Origin: Anastrepha obliqua
Lineage: Eukaryota > Arthropoda > Insecta > Diptera > Tephritidae
Direction of reading: 5' to 3'
DNA length: 64,000 nt
NCBI RefSeq assembly: GCF_027943255.1
Contig: NC_072892.1
Coordinates: 167,960,792-168,024,791 of the forward strand
Shown here: one piece after another, positions 4,740 to 54,345 of the stretch
Numbering within the stretch: the stretch's first letter is position 1
Layout of the letters: every line of letters begins with the position of its first letter
Position numbers and translations under genes: made by a program
Notes under the pieces: generated by a model
Database searches by the model: none
What the model saw: the letters and a program-made list of their open reading frames with translations, nothing else
Told to the model about the DNA's origin: nothing

Positions 4740-4860
4740 CGACAGCCACTTCGCAACAGTCCCAAAGTAATGGTTTGGTGTGCAGTGGAATAATTGGACC
4801 ATATTTTTTTTAAGTCGAGGGCAAGCAATTTCTGTGGACGGTTTCTCTTATCGATCTTAA
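4740..4860 (+). pseudogene. Small DD41D transposase fragment
   Basis: The translation contains PKVMVWCAV followed, in a shifted frame, by GIIGPYFF. This is the conserved strand between the first and second catalytic residues in DD41D transposases (compare VTVWCAVSS and IVGPYFF at 11610-11660). Both sides are lost. Confidence 0.6.
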
Positions 4861-4879
4861 GTAAAATCTATAACTGGTC

Positions 4880-5110
4880 ATTGGCTGTTTCGCAGGCATT
4901 CTTTCAGATTAGGAGTTTTCTCTCATGAATATTGTAGCTGTTGTAGAGATGAGGAAGAGGAAGAAACAGTTGAGCACTTCCTTTGCAATTGTCCAGTCTG
5001 AGCTAAAATCAGAGGAGGTTTTCTAGGTAATTTTTTTTTTTTGCAATTCTCACACGGAACTGTCTGGCGTGGGGTGAATATAATAGATTCTTATTGGCTA
5101 AGTGGGCAAC
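4880..5110 (+). pseudogene. Non-LTR retrotransposon C-terminal zinc-knuckle fragment
   Basis: The frame gives CRSC-like and DEEEEETVEHFLCNC residues. This is the Cys-His motif found after the RNase H domain in I/LOA/R1-type retrotransposons. Closely related pieces lie at 36230-36420 and 50701-50745, including a shared gaactgtctggcgtggg downstream block. It is 5'-truncated and a stop follows the motif. Confidence 0.65.
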
Positions 5111-5520
5111 ATTTTCAGGCTGATAGGCATTAAAAAAGAAAGTACAAATAACCAATTTATAATAAATATTCAAAGAAATCAATAGGCGATCTTTTGATCA
5201 TGAAAAATATATCTATATAAATTTCGAGATTTTACACAACACAATACGGACTCTAGTAATAGGAGTATTCCGAGCATAAACAGATTTTGAGAGACTAATA
5301 CAGAAAAACGCCGAAGTACGAAGAGCTCTGACCAGAATATTTAAGAAAACCCTCTCAAGTAGCGCGGGATAGCCAACAGCACCACAGATCAAATCGCAAA
5401 TGAGGGAGGCAGATGAGATAGTTCTCCTGTTCTGCAATGCTTTTAAGTTAATCAATAATTGATGCGGCCCCTGTCCGACATTGGACAACAGAGTAGGCAT
5501 TCGATCCAACGATCCTCGCC
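5111..5520. other. Unassigned stretch upstream of retrotransposon remnant
   Basis: A 128-codon frame exists on the minus strand (5213-5599). It runs antisense into the plus-strand retrotransposon below and shows no domain. It may be more upstream sequence of that element, too decayed to assign. Confidence 0.4.
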
Positions 5521-10916: not shown

Positions 10917-12228
10917 CAGGGTGGCTGATGAAAGCCGCTACCAAAAAAAAATTGAATAACTTTTTTTCTTTTTCAGTTATCTGTTCCATTTTTGTTTTAA
11001 TTTGCAGATTGATCTTTAAAATTTATTAAAATGGATAACTGGGACACGCAAACAAGAATTTGGATAGTCCGCCGCTATCACGCACTGGAGTCCGTAGTTT
11101 TGGTACAAAGAGAGTACAGGCGGATGTTTGGCGGCGATCCCCCGACCAGATGGACCATAATGAGACTGGTGAATAATTTTGCTGAGCAAGGAACAGTCGC
11201 AAGAAGGCCTTATCATCGAAACCCACCAGTTCGGACGGAGGAAACGATCGCTGCTGTAGCTGCAGCTATACAAAGCAATCCAAGGGTTTCAACAAGAAGC
11301 TTATCTGCTCAACTTGGTGTCAGCCGACAGTCTTTGCAAACAATAATGCACAAAGATTTAGACTTATTTCCCTACAAAATTCAAATGGTTAACAAACTGA
11401 ATGCAGCAGACTTGCCGATTCGCTTGGCATTTTGCCAGAAGATCCTGCAAATGGTGGAAGAAGACCAAAACATGTTAAACTGCCTTTTCATGTCTGATGA
11501 GGACCATTTCGATTTAAACGGCAATGTGAACAAACAAAATTGTCGAATATGGAGTATTTCTAACCCACAGATACTCCACGAGACGGAATTGCATCCTCTT
11601 CGCGTGACAGTGTGGTGTGCGGTTTCTTCACGCTGTATTGTCGGGCCTTATTTTTTTGAAGAAAATGGTCACACCGTTACGGTTACTGGAGACCGTTATT
11701 TGAAAATGCTGAAAGAATTTTTCTATCCAGAACTACGTCGAAAGAGAATTCCTTTCAACTCTGTGTGGTTTCAACAAGATGAGGCAACGTCTCACATAGC
11801 CCAGACTGTTATGACAGAGTTGCGACGAAAATTTCCCAATAAACTGATTTCAAGAAACTCCGAATTTCGTTGGCCCCCCAGGTCGCCTGACCTTACTGCA
11901 CCTGACTTTTTCTTGTGGGGTTTATGTAAACAAGAAGTTTATAAAACAAAGCCAACAAATTTGGACGAACTAAAACAATCCATTCGGGCAACAATTGCGG
12001 CTATTCCTATCGCAACTCTCAAAGCAGCAATGAACAACCTTTTACTAAGATGCCGCACTTGTGTCAACGAGCATGGGGGGCATTTAAATTCAATTATTTT
12101 TAAAACTTGTTAAGCTACATTTAATAAAATGTAATGGCCTTCAACTTGAAAAAAAAAAAATGAATTCCATACACTAAAAAAAAAGTTATTTGAGTTTCTT
12201 AATGTAGCAAAATTCATCAGCCACCCTG
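10917..12228 (+). mobile_element. Complete DD41D mariner-like transposon (rosa/Visitor type)
   Basis: The element begins cagggtggctgatgaa at 10917 and ends with the exact inverted copy ttcatcagccaccctg at 12228. The repeat continues imperfectly to about 25 bp. TA flanks both ends (10915-10916 and 12229-12230), the duplicated target typical of the superfamily. Its 1312 bp hold a single uninterrupted transposase gene with about 114 bp upstream and 115 bp downstream, including an aataaaa signal near 12123. The layout is that of an autonomous element. Intact ends plus an intact frame suggest a fairly recent insertion compared with everything else in the window. Confidence 0.9.
11031..12113 (+). 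CDS. DD41D Tc1/mariner transposase, intact, 360 aa
   Basis: The enzyme would bind the element's terminal repeats in the nucleus and cut and paste it into TA sites. Residues 1-60 form a first helix-turn-helix (YHALESVVLVQREYRRMF) and 65-115 a second (VSTRSLSAQLGVSRQSLQTI). The RNase H-like catalytic core follows: D156 in MSDEDHF, D250 in WFQQDEATSH and D292 in LTAPDFFLWG. The second and third Asp are separated by 41 residues, which is the DD41D signature rather than DD34D mariner or DD34E Tc1. WPPRSPDLTAPDFF is the hallmark block. About 360 aa is a normal length for the group. The ATG lies 114 bp inside the left terminal repeat and no in-frame stop precedes the final TAA. QQDEATSH, rather than the more usual QQDGATxH, is the only obvious departure. 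Catalytic competence is inferred, not shown. Confidence 0.92.
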   Translation: MDNWDTQTRIWIVRRYHALESVVLVQREYRRMFGGDPPTRWTIMRLVNNFAEQGTVARRPYHRNPPVRTEETIAAVAAAIQSNPRVSTRSLSAQLGVSRQSLQTIMHKDLDLFPYKIQMVNKLNAADLPIRLAFCQKILQMVEEDQNMLNCLFMSDEDHFDLNGNVNKQNCRIWSISNPQILHETELHPLRVTVWCAVSSRCIVGPYFFEENGHTVTVTGDRYLKMLKEFFYPELRRKRIPFNSVWFQQDEATSHIAQTVMTELRRKFPNKLISRNSEFRWPPRSPDLTAPDFFLWGLCKQEVYKTKPTNLDELKQSIRATIAAIPIATLKAAMNNLLLRCRTCVNEHGGHLNSIIFKTC

Positions 12229-21978: not shown

Positions 21979-23278
21979 ACGGGTGATTTTTTAGCTATTA
22001 TCTTTTCAAGCAGTTGGTTCAAAAGCTGACGCACGTTTCGTGTTTTGTTTCATTGTCAAACGTCTTCAGTTTGGTCTATAATTTAACCGTGAATCGTCTT
22101 ACAAACGAACAACGCTTGCAAATCATTGAATTTTATTATAAATGCGTGTTCTGTTAAGAAAGCTTATCGCGCTTCTTCCATTTTATGGTCAGTTTAATCG
22201 ACCCACTGAAGCGGCTATTCGAGCTATTGTGACTAAATTTAGAACCAAATTTGCATCATTGGACATCAAACCACCAACTCGCTTGCGTAGAGTGCGAACT
22301 GAAGAAAATATCTCAGCTGCATCGGCCAGTGTTAATGATGACCATCAATTATCGATTCGTCGCCGTTCGCAGCAATTGGGCCTCTGTTACTCAACAACGT
22401 GGGAAATTTTGCGAAAGGATTTAGGTGTGAAGCCTTTCAAAATTCAGCTGGCGCAAGAATTGAAGCCGAACGACCTACCGGAACGCAGAATTTTTGGTGA
22501 ATGGGCTCTTGGAAAGTTGGCCGAAGATCCACTTTTTTATCGAAAAGTTGTGTTCAGTGACGAAGCTCATTTTTGGATCAATGGGTACGTAAATAAGCAG
22601 AATTGTCGATTTTGGAGTGAAGATCAGAGATCAGCCAGAAGAATTGCAAGAGCTACCAATGTAGCCAGAAAACGTCACAGTTTGGTGCGGTTTATGGGCT
22701 GGAGGTATCATTGGACCGCACTTCTTCAAAGATGCTGCGAATCGTAGCTGTGAATGGTGAGCGCTACCATAAAATGATATCCAACTTTTTTTGCCCAAAA
22801 TGCAAGAGCTTGACTTGCATGACATGTGGTTTCAGCAAGACGGTGCCACATGCCACACAGCAGGCGTAATAATGGACTTGTTGAGAGGCGAGTTCGGTGA
22901 ACATTTTCTTTCACGTTCGGGACCTGTCAATTGGCCACCCAGATCGTGCGATATAACGCCTTTAGATTATTTTTTGTGGGGCTATGTTAAAGCGCATATT
23001 TATTCAGAAAAGCCTGCTTCAATTAACGCATTGGAAGACAACACAAAAGCACGCATATGTGAGATACCGGCCGAAACATTGGAAAGAGTATGCCAAAATT
23101 GTACTAAGCGGATGGACCATTTGAAGCGCAGTCGCGGTCAACATTTGCATGAAATAATCTTTAAACATTAAATTATATGGGGTGTACTATCGATTTAAAT
23201 AAAAATTTCATGCATTTTTCTGAATTTTACGTGTGTTTTTTTGAAAAACTCTCCTAAAGCTCTTAAAAAATCACCCTT
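21979..23278 (+). mobile_element. Full-length but inactive DD41D mariner-like element
   Basis: The ends read acgggtgattttttagct at the left and, inverted, aagggtgattttttaagagc at the right. TA lies outside each end (21977-21978 and 23279-23280). The 1300 bp length matches the intact element at 10917, but the terminal repeats and protein differ, so it is a separate family. The family also left the fragment at 2438. Confidence 0.85.
22090..23171 (+). pseudogene. DD41D transposase pseudogene
   Basis: The expected initiator is GTG instead of ATG (VNRLTNEQRLQIIEFYYK at about 22089). The frame breaks near 22142, resumes as ALLPFYGQFNRPTEAAIRAIV, and runs through two helix-turn-helix segments (RRRSQQLGLCYSTTWEILR). 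It then reaches the first catalytic block FSDEAHFWINGYVNKQNCRFW at about 22556. Another break near 22640-22750 damages the VTVWCGLWAGGIIGPHFF strand. The last frame (22791-23171) holds WFQQDGATCHTAG and, 41 residues after that Asp, PLDYFLWGYVK. All three catalytic Asp are therefore still encoded, but in different frames. The stop lies near 23171. It is inactive as it stands. Confidence 0.85.
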
Positions 23279-36622: not shown

Positions 36623-36839
36623 GAGAAGGAAAGCTTCGGTGGGGCTCCTTTGACATATACAATTTAAAGGCCTCACGAAGTTCCCAAAGTCTGTCTCGAG
36701 AGGCTCCCAAAGGTGCAAGTTCTTCAGGCTAGAAGCGGTATCATGCTACGTAATATCTGGTCATCTTACTCGTGGAGCTTACCAGACCTTCCTTAGGCTC
36801 GTAACTTAAGGATCTATTCCACGCTTTTCAAATTGTAAA

Positions 36840-37640
36840 TATAATGAGAAACATGAGTCTAAACTCGCGAGACGCAATATGGCTGGCAATGAGTATAAAG
36901 GGTGTTCCCGCCAAAAAAATCCGCCTCATCAAAGCCATGTACGAGAACTCCGAACTGGCAATGCTTCACAAAGGCGATATCAGCGATCCAGACATCTTGA
37001 GGACCTGGACCTCATCGATGACGTCCGCCTCCTCTCTCACAAACTCTCTGACATGCAAGCGAAGCCGGACAAACTAATCGCGCTGCCACGCATTGTCGGA
37101 CTGGAGGTCAACATCGCCAAGACCAAGCCCATGAGAATTAACCACAATAACGCATGGCAGATATTGGTTGACGGATGCTCTGTGGAATTCGTCGAAAGCT
37201 TCTGCTATCGCGGCTGCATCATCACGGCAGATGGTGTAGCAGATGAATATGTCAACTGCAGGCTAAACAAAGCAAGGGCGGCATTCGGGCGAATGCATAC
37301 AATCTGCGGGAGTTCGCAAATCTCCAGGCGCTCTAAACTACGAATATTCGACTCATGCGTAAAGGCAGTATTCTTGTACGGAAGCGAAACATGGATGGTC
37401 TCTAAGACCATCACACAGAGGCTACAATCCTTCATCAACAACGCATCATCTGCAGAATACTCTGGCCAAACACCATCAGTAACGACGCACTGTGGATATT
37501 AATGAACGAGGAACCCATCCTTAGGCAAAGGTCGATGCTGCGCGAACTAGCAGATGCCGACATCTCATGGGACGGTGCAAAAACAACAGCACAGAACCAT
37601 GCACGTTGGAAGAGTCTTGTCGGGACCCGATGCTCCCGAG
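36840..37640 (+). pseudogene. RTE-like retrotransposon reverse transcriptase remnant
   Basis: The first frame gives AIWLAMSIKGVPAKKIRLIKAMYEN, a segment before the active site. An internal deletion brings this next to LDLIDDVRLLSHKLSDMQ, in which the YADD box has become LIDD. A long frame to 37502 carries VEFVESFCYRGCIITADG, CRLNKARAAFGRM and VFLYGSETWMVSKTI, the thumb region typical of RTE elements. The C-terminus then breaks up across frames. The catalytic box and the deletion make it inactive. Confidence 0.75.
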
Positions 37641-41445: not shown

Positions 41446-41608
41446 TAATAAAAAAAAAACAAAAATTGTTATAGTTAAGTTTGCGTTAAAGGGTTAGGCG
41501 TAGTCAGAATTTTGAAAAAATTGAATTTTTTTGCATTTTCTTAAAGTATAGTATATTTTATGAAAATTTTAAGTGAATCCGACTAATACTTTTCGAGTTA
41601 TTCAACAA

Positions 41609-44105
41609 TTGAGCCCTTGATTTTGAAAGTCGACTAAGTCATATTTTCCTTGTTTCGAGATAATTAGAGTTTTGCGTTTTAAAGGATTAAAAAATATTTT
41701 TGCACTATGGAAAATGATTTTTCGACAGTAAAGTAGTGCCAACAAACAAGAATTTATTATGGTTGTGAAATTTATAACCATTTTTAACTGGATATGTGCT
41801 TTTGAAAGGTTGCAAATGACTTAGTCGACTTTCAAAATTAACAGAATGACTTTATAAATGACTTATACCATCAAGGAAACATTTTTATTAGTAATTAACA
41901 TTTTATTCAAACTCATTTCATTGTAACAAAGTAAATTATTTGTTAATACATATTTAGGGAAGTAAAGTGTTTGTGAAAAATTGGTGGGATATAGGGTAGT
42001 AAATCCATCATATCTTTATGTTTTTCTTTTGTTATTGGTCTAATAGTTGTGTACAATGGAGGCAAATCAATATTTTTGTATATTTTACGTCTTCCTATTT
42101 TAGGTGAGAGGTCTAATATTTTGAATTCGGAATTCTCATCTAAGGAAGTTTTATAAAACATCTTATATGGAGAATTTTTTAGAAATCTGATCCATTGAAT
42201 TTTTAGCCAAGACACAGCTTCTCCATTGGTGTTTTTCTTTCTATTATTCGTTGAATCTTTTAGTTGTTTTGTCGAAATGAAATTTTTCTGAGCCATTTGT
42301 ACCACCAAAAATGGGTTTTTTTTTACATACTTCTATTAAATTATAATAATGCTCAGGTATGTATAAATAATTCGATTTTTTAATTTTAGTTTCTATCATA
42401 CCAAAATCGCGATCATTTGGCAAAAAAGAATGGCCGGATACCATAAATTTATGATCAACAGTTTCATCATTGTTATCAGATGACTGTACAATTTTTAACC
42501 AAACTAAAGCTATATTGATGTTACGATTTTGTCCTGTGCAGGCATCACTGTAAGCTATGACGTGCTTTTGAGTGGTAATGTCCTGAATGTGCTTTAAGAT
42601 GCAGGACGCAACTTCCTGTGATCCTCTTGAAGCGATTGTTTCATCCCATACATATATTACATTTTAGCATTTTCATTGTGGAAATTATGAAACCCCAAAT
42701 TGTATACATACATGTTGCGCTTATAATAAGCTACCGAAACAGAAAGTTTTGGATACGCAAGTGCTTTCTGTAGATCAAATGTGAAACCGTAATATTCACT
42801 CGGGTTATCTTTTGCTTTTTGTATGTCATCTGTTAAACTTTTTCTGGCCTGTTCGGCACTGATAAGATGTGAATCACGAATTTCCATAAGATGCAACTTC
42901 TCGTCTTCGTTACTGGATGCTTCTATTTTTAGTTTTAGTGAATCACACTTTTGGCAAGTGTCTTTACGAGGAGTATGAAAATTTAAGTTGAACTCCGTAT
43001 TGAAAATTTTCCTGTAAGTCCACTCCTTCACACGTGATATATTATTTTCATCACATTTTTTCACATACAGCTCATACATTTTTCGGATATCTAAGTCAGC
43101 ACTTAAATACTTTCGACCTGAAGTGTGATGTGATCTCGTGTAATGGCTCTCACATGCTGGAAAACTCAGAATATGTTCTCGTACCACTTTAATTTTATTT
43201 TCATCTGTTTTTCTAGATGAACCAAGCATTTTGCCACGTAAATCCATTCCAGGTGATTTGGCATTTAAGGCACCGTTTAATCTTCCGTAAGATATTTTAA
43301 AAGTATCCAAAAAAAAAAAGTTCTACAAATGGAAACTTCTGAATTTGGTAAATTTATATGATACTTATAACTACATTTTCCCATATATCCTTCTTCATTT
43401 CTGGGTCGTCTTTGCTTTATTGATAGTTTTCGAACCAAACCGTACAGAAACAAATTTGCTTTCCTATCTTCATATCCAATTGCATTTATACATTGTTTGG
43501 AACAACGGCAATCTTTATATTCGAAAAGTTTACCACTCACAAGCTTAGACTTTTTTGTTTCATATTCCTCTCCACTATTTCTCTTCATTTTTCTTATACT
43601 TCGTGCATAATTAAGTTGATTTCGGCTCCTCTTTCTTGATTTCATGTTGATTTCTTCCATTTGTAGGGGTTCCGAATTCACTTTCACAGTATCAGTTGAT
43701 TCATCTGAAGACGATATTGCTCTTATTCGTTTCCATTTCTTGGGAGCATTACTTAAACTTCTTCGCAGTACAATGTCTACAATTAACTATATTATAAATA
43801 GTACGTTTTTACATTTAAATGATTACTTGATCATACCTGAATCGTTATCTGAAGGCATTACAAAATTATTATTTATTTTCCAAAATTTCTCAACGAACTG
43901 ACTTAGTCGACTATCAAAATGAACAGTTTCCGTATTTTGTTTAACAACCAAAAAATACACTCAATTTTACGAGTTAATTTTCATGGCATACTGCTAATCT
44001 CTTCAGATTATGTTAGTTCATTAGGATTAGATAACAAGTAGCTGATAAACTCGATTTTTAAAAATTTTGACTTAGTCGACTTTCAAAATCAAGGGCTCAA
44101 TTAAC
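41609..44105 (-). mobile_element. 2.5 kb DNA transposon with DDE-like cysteine-rich ORF; superfamily uncertain
   Basis: Inverted terminal repeats of about 31 bp begin gagcccttgattttgaaagt at the left and end actttcaaaatcaagggctc at the right, with AATT outside both. Joining the flanks gives a continuous caacaattaaca, so AATT is the likely 4-bp target duplication. The core word gacttagtcgac plus ttcaaaat is repeated inside both ends (about 41820 and 43900). The single gene on the minus strand fills the interior. A 4-bp target and subterminal repeats fit Sola-type elements better than Tc1/mariner or piggyBac, but this is tentative. The element interrupts another AT-rich repeat-like sequence. 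Confidence 0.75.
41943..43858 (-). CDS. DDE-like transposase candidate (DUF7869-type), two exons, three frame breaks
   Basis: Exon 1 (43837-43858) encodes MPSDNDS. A 60-nt GT-AG intron (43777-43836) joins it in phase to a long second exon. The protein has a basic N-terminus (KSRKRSRNQ), cysteine motifs (CRCSKQC, CQKCDSLK) and an RNase H-like core. Candidate acidic residues are in GFTFDLQKAL, IAYSDACTGQNRN and SGHSFLPNDRDFGMIE. The last two motifs recall insect proteins carrying the domain I know as DUF7869; this is from memory. Three breaks interrupt the frame, two of them inside A/T homopolymers (about 43309 and 42315) and one near 42657. Apart from these the frame is open for about 600 codons. 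It may be a young pseudogene or an intact gene with assembly errors. It lies inside inverted terminal repeats, so a transposase role is inferred. Confidence 0.7.
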
Positions 44106-53221: not shown

Positions 53222-54345
53222 TCGATTATAAGGCAGCTATTGATAGCTCAATAAGAGATCGCTTATATGTCACAATGTCTGAGTTCGGTATTCCCGGAAA
53301 CTTATTCAGCTTTGCGAAATGGCATTGAGCAACATATCAAGCTCTGTCAAGGAAAAGACATCTCCAAACCTTTCAATACCGAGCGAGGTTTTAGACAAGG
53401 CGATACACTATCGTGTGACCCCTTTAACTTCCTTATGGTAGGATCTACTGCGGGGAGCCGGCATTCATCGAAATAACACTATTTTCACTAAAATTGTCCA
53501 GCTCCTATGCTGATGATATTGAAATCATAAGGCACTGCACGCGAAATGTTATCGCAGTATTTTCCGATATCGAAAGAGAGTCAACTAGAGTGGGTCTGAC
53601 GGTTAACAAGGGCAAGACGAAGTATATGCTGTCCACTAGGACAGTTACACGGCATTTTGGATCCAGCCTTTCAGTGGCCAACTTTACTTTTGATATTATC
53701 AAAGAATTTACATATATATCTTCGGACAGCGTCACAACAACAAACGATGTCAGCCTGGAGATAAAGCGACAAGTCTTGCTTGCTAATGGGTGTTACTATG
53801 ATCTCAGTAAGCAAATGTGTAGCAGAGACCTCTCTCGCCCGACAAAACTAACACTCTACAAGAGGCTCATCTTTCCCGTGTTACTCTACGGCGTTGAAGC
53901 ATGGGTTGTGCCGCAGATTGATGCAGCAGCTTTTGGGGTATTCAAGAGAAAGATACTTCAGAAATCGTGGGTCCTCTTCGACAATTACTACCGCCGAATG
54001 ACCGACGAGCTATATGAGCTTTACGCCCATGTGGACATAGTGAAGCGCATCAATTTTCAGCGCTTTCGCTAGTTGGACCACATCAAGCGTATGGATGCAG
54101 TAGCTCAAGCAAAGAAGGTGTTCGGATGGCAAGTTAGAGGACAAAGACGTAGAGGAGGACCATAGCCTCGATGGCAGAACCAAGTCGGGGGAAACCTATC
54201 ATCGCTTGGTGTAACAAATTGGAGTAGACGCGCGCAAAGCAAAGACGCCTGACGACGTTTGTTACAGTCGGCCTTAATCCGGTAACGGGTTGTGATGCTT
54301 GATCAGGTGTGATCCTTGATCAGGTGTGATCCTTGATCAGGCCAT
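53222..54345 (+). pseudogene. RTE-like reverse transcriptase remnant with an intact YADD box
   Basis: Starting near 53222 (VDYKAAIDS-like text), the frame passes LSSVFPETYSALRNGI and GFRQGDTLSCDPFNFLM. After a frameshift near 53480 it continues for 192 codons: SSYADDIEIIRHC (catalytic box, unaltered), LTVNKGKTKYMLST, FDIIKEFTYISSDS, LYKRLIFPVLLYGVEAWV and DELYELYAHVDIVKRINFQRF, then a stop at 54070. The C-terminal block (SLGVTNWSRRAQSKDA) is out of frame near 54195-54245. The 3' end has three 17-bp tandem units (ttgatcaggtgtgatcc, 54299-54345) and AAGT repeats. The endonuclease is missing. Confidence 0.75.

Follow-up and report, generated by a model that had tools for sequence, protein, structure and literature searches.

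What kind of mobile element lies at positions 41611–44098 of a 64,000-nucleotide stretch of Anastrepha obliqua DNA (contig NC_072892.1), and what does its protein do? The whole stretch is called the window here, and coordinates refer to it. A preliminary description had read this locus as a transposon encoding a protein resembling the Pfam domain DUF7869, and had hinted at a new kind of element. The structure that it observed is confirmed and its interpretation is supported in part. The window element is very probably one copy of a recently active family of Sola2-type cut-and-paste DNA transposons, here called family A, which would move by the mechanism proposed below.

Ends of the element

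The element is 2488 bp long, and the 31-bp terminal inverted repeats (TIRs) described previously form a perfect pair (Table 1), both beginning GAGCCC; the limits first given, 41609..44105, are a few bases off. A repeat search returned inverted arms of 41 nucleotides at 41607–41647 and 44062–44102, which are 95% complementary and include the palindromic AATT present at both borders. The motif GACTTAGTCGACT is the inner portion of each TIR, and one further copy lies inside each end, inverted relative to its TIR on the left and direct on the right, so that the earlier observation of subterminal repeats in both ends stands. All four sites are kept in the six family A copies checked, the window copy among them. 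A second family (B, discussed below) likewise has its own motif at four sites, an outer and an inverted inner one at each end. The inner copies of GACTTAGTCGACT are likely to be transposase binding sites.

Table 1. Features of the family A copy in the window
Feature	Position	Strand	Basis
Target-site duplication AATT, left copy	41607..41610		Same as 44099–44102; equal 4-mers in 27/28 copies
Left TIR, 31 bp, perfect	41611..41641	+	Repeat search; other copies terminate at the identical base
Inner copy of TIR motif GACTTAGTCGACT, inverted to left TIR	41818..41830	+	Four sites in 6/6 copies
Open reading frame piece: C-terminal domain	41943..42332	-	Open reading frames, alignments
Exon 2, three frame breaks in window copy	41943..43776	-	Open reading frames, translation, other copies
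Open reading frame piece: second (YSDACTGQN) and third (GHSFLPNDRDFG) triad aspartates; weak DUF7869 match	42244..42663	-	Pfam 17.9 bits, cut-off 26; models
Open reading frame piece: KDTCxxCD motif and first triad aspartate (FDLQK)	42657..43322	-	Open reading frames, alignments
Intron, 60 nt, GT...AG	43777..43836	-	Predicted
Exon 1 with start codon	43837..43858	-	Predicted
Inner copy of GACTTAGTCGACT, right end	43900..43912	+	Repeat search, copy comparison
Right TIR, 31 bp	44068..44098	-	Repeat search, copy comparison
Target-site duplication AATT, right copy	44099..44102		Copy comparison

Copies and target duplications

The genome to which the window belongs (836 Mb, 204 contigs) was searched for further copies. 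Copy counts are lower bounds, with 40 of 333 and 40 of 182 candidates scored in two genome searches. There are at least 23 dispersed copies of family A, counting the one in the window, each aligned over 2483 bp or more out of 2490, and family A copies terminate at the same bases as the window copy. The preliminary description had called for copies to be collected and their ends aligned, and had allowed that other copies might lack these ends; many copies share them, and this possibility is refuted. The mean pairwise substitution distance among the 23 copies is 1.56% (range 0.04–2.19%), and because they are on average so similar a recent burst is suggested. The pair L013 and L022 (copies are cited by L number), which lie at distant places with duplications ATTT and ATAT, is 0.04% apart and is, by its sequence, a very recent jump.

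Among 28 copies with both ends, the flanking 4-mers are equal in 27, and all 27 have the form AWWT (W being A or T): ATAT in 15, AAAT in 6, AATT in 5 and ATTT in 1. The sole mismatch is L012, with ATTT against ATAT. When the right flanks were shuffled among the 28 copies, the mean number of matches was 10.8 and the maximum in 100,000 shuffles was 22. The 28 exclude L001–L004 and L008, which repeat L009–L013, as well as L027 and L034, in which no end pair was found, and one L021 row pairing a neighbouring end. The AATT target proposed earlier is therefore correct for the flanks of the window copy; as a constant target it is ruled out, since only 5 of the 28 pairs are AATT and the equal pairs are spread over ATAT, AAAT, AATT and ATTT. 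The target is AWWT.

Five further deletion derivatives have both ends. Their flanks are equal in four (L043 AATT, L044 AACT, L048 AAAT, L049 ATTT), three of these being AWWT, and differ in L046 (GATT against AATT). Not counted here are L045, which consists of two adjoining copies with AATT outside, and L047, L050 and L051, each showing a single end. An identical internal deletion, at about 395/1180, is found at several places (L043, L044 and both L045 copies), and another, 998/1506, is shared by L048 and L049. Because the same deletion recurs at different places, the comparison shows that broken copies were multiplied, and the enzyme of other copies would be the simplest source.

L050 and L051 belong to a related subfamily, whose matched pieces share 82–89% identity with family A, and the single end found has TACCAC in place of the GTCGAC of family A. 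Copy L002, at about 4820–5310 of that locus, contains a long simple repeat, which reads as an open reading frame of repeated CYVML in all three forward frames.

The transposase and its predicted fold

The transposase gene is predicted from the sequence to have two exons on the minus strand, the first of 22 nucleotides, separated by a GT-AG intron (43836–43777). It had been described as nearly intact. This does not hold for the window copy, in which the reading frame of exon 2 is interrupted three times and a run of 14 codons known from other copies is absent. The longest open stretches among the 28 copies are 525 codons, and an exact-match search for seven marker motifs identified no copy among the 28 with the full set in a single frame.

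The three acidic motifs likened to RNase H in the preliminary description have been substantiated. All three aspartates are invariant across every row of two protein alignments, one with 61 rows (here called A2) and one with 45, and judged by topology they fall at the RNase H active site in the predicted models. The transposase is thus predicted to have an RNase H-like core with a D-D-D (DDD) triad. Among the families on Foldseek's own list, to which the fold comparison was limited, the closest folds include retroviral integrases, with mariner transposases (Mos1 and the SETMAR transposase domain) about equal.

On the basis of these observations, we propose that the two-exon gene yields a transposase which would bind the GACTTAGTCGACT repeats, two per end, pair the ends and cut adjoining GAGCCC. 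Insertion would proceed via a 4-bp staggered cut at AWWT, and repair would generate the duplication. That the element is cut and pasted rather than copied is assumed from its class. The window copy, being broken, would be mobile only with enzyme supplied by another element.

Protein relatives and DUF7869

Used as a query, the C-terminal stretch of L006 (467 residues, the longest) matched 406 relatives at E 0.001; the best 120 were listed. Among the matches listed the closest is P0001 (569 residues, 95%), and P0002, from Glossina palpalis gambiensis, aligns with 92% of the query at 87% identity, a likeness that may reflect shared ancestry or horizontal transfer. The named species among these best 120 are insects, most entries carrying no name.

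The likeness to DUF7869 (PF25273) stands in one sense and fails in another: the protein is homologous to proteins that pass the Pfam cut-off of 26 bits, while the window piece itself scores 17.9. P0001 has no DUF7869 match in Pfam at E 0.01, a level at which 31 of the 61 A2 proteins match. Two further families, B and C, exceed the cut-off with 56 and 48.7 bits, and pairwise blastp aligns P0001 with them at E 5e-50 (residues 13–414) and 2e-58 (13–527 of 569). Copies within each family are nearly identical and are bounded by inverted ends and 4-bp target duplications, and a model made for one of the two families predicts an RNase H-like DDD core. The domain is thus tied to real transposon ends, as had been envisaged. 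In family C the Pfam match starts at residue 492 (profile position 23), past the first triad aspartate at residue 457; therefore the present boundary of DUF7869 splits the transposase core.

The two other DUF7869 families, represented by loci L036–L042, have open frames as long as 650 and 736 codons and were probably active very recently. Four other Pfam families, each matching one of the 61 A2 proteins, were taken as chance. Neither the name DUF7869 nor PF25273 was found in the literature searched.

Classification

The Sola superfamily is reportedly founded on a 2009 paper by Bao et al. Sola elements have a DDD transposase, 4-bp target-site duplications (TSDs), TIRs of 11–1124 bp and a size of mostly 2–9 kb (PMC10741241). 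Sola2 of Dictyostelium fasciculatum has AT-rich 4-bp TSDs (AWWT), a 4-bp TSD being consistent with Sola2, and Polysphondylium Sola2 has ATAT, AAAT and ATTT (PMC3627910). Family A agrees on each point: 4-bp AWWT duplications in 27 of 28 copies and three of the five further derivatives, invariant aspartates at the predicted active-site positions, 31-bp TIRs and a length within the size range. The amoebozoan elements differ in having TIRs of 12–13 or 21 bp, against 31 bp and an extra inner motif copy in family A; they carry Fanzor1 genes, and one has an 888-residue transposase (PMC3627910). Sola2 is a known but little-studied kind, and on these comparisons family A very probably belongs to it; the hint of a new kind is not supported.

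The alternative that survives best is that DUF7869 elements form a superfamily of their own, whose DDD transposase and AWWT target merely resemble those of Sola2. The filing under Sola2 rests on TSD, triad, TIRs and size set against published descriptions, and no name shown among 240 relatives listed from two protein searches, most of them nameless, says Sola or transposase. Agreement in TSD length, TSD motif and triad with the published accounts nevertheless argues against a separate superfamily, as does the description of distinct subgroups within Sola (PMC4455052). We therefore rank it as less likely than Sola2, and unlikely overall. The same standing is given to the broader version, in which DUF7869 marks a large unnamed superfamily converging on Sola2 in the AWWT target only. 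If true, this superfamily, with 99 hits in the window's genome, would be spread across insects as 'uncharacterized protein'.

A Ginger or other integrase-derived transposon is very improbable. Ginger elements also make 4-bp TSDs, as family A does, and retroviral integrases are among the closest predicted folds, but mariner transposases fit about as well, and no Pfam match to the Gypsy-integrase-like core (rve) was obtained with four open reading frame pieces of the window copy at E 1 or with the 61 A2 proteins at E 0.01. The piggyBac and Kolobok target is TTAA, which is found in 0 of 28 flank pairs. The preliminary description rightly set the element apart from Tc1/mariner, for which the published duplication is the 2-bp TA (PMC10741241), in contrast to the 4-bp AWWT of family A; the same pieces and proteins, at the same thresholds, gave no match to a Pfam mariner family. 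A conserved host gene lying by chance between repeats might seem compatible with the related proteins entered as uncharacterized in many insects, but is ruled out by the dispersed copies with the same end bases, 27 of 28 having their own 4-bp duplication.

Other elements in the window

A 366-codon open frame at 11013–12113 (+) contains the helix-turn-helix domain DUF4817 (31.2 bits), and is presumably a Tc1/mariner-type transposase. The fragment at 22142–22747 resembles it by eye and has no match in a Pfam search. Two stretches on the forward strand, 36810–37502 and 53428–54072, look like remnants of reverse transcriptases of retrotransposons without long terminal repeats; the Pfam scores are 30.1 bits for DUF6451 and 18.4 bits, under the cut-off, for RVT_1.

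Implications

What the analysis usefully adds is a functional interpretation of DUF7869. Proteins of this family are catalogued as of unknown function, and the results indicate that they supply elements of this type with their DNA-cutting enzyme. Many insect proteins stand in databases as 'uncharacterized' or 'DUF7869 domain-containing'. Renaming the domain as a Sola-like transposase core would clear many false host genes, and would point to candidate elements with which a superfamily that has received little study could be tested.
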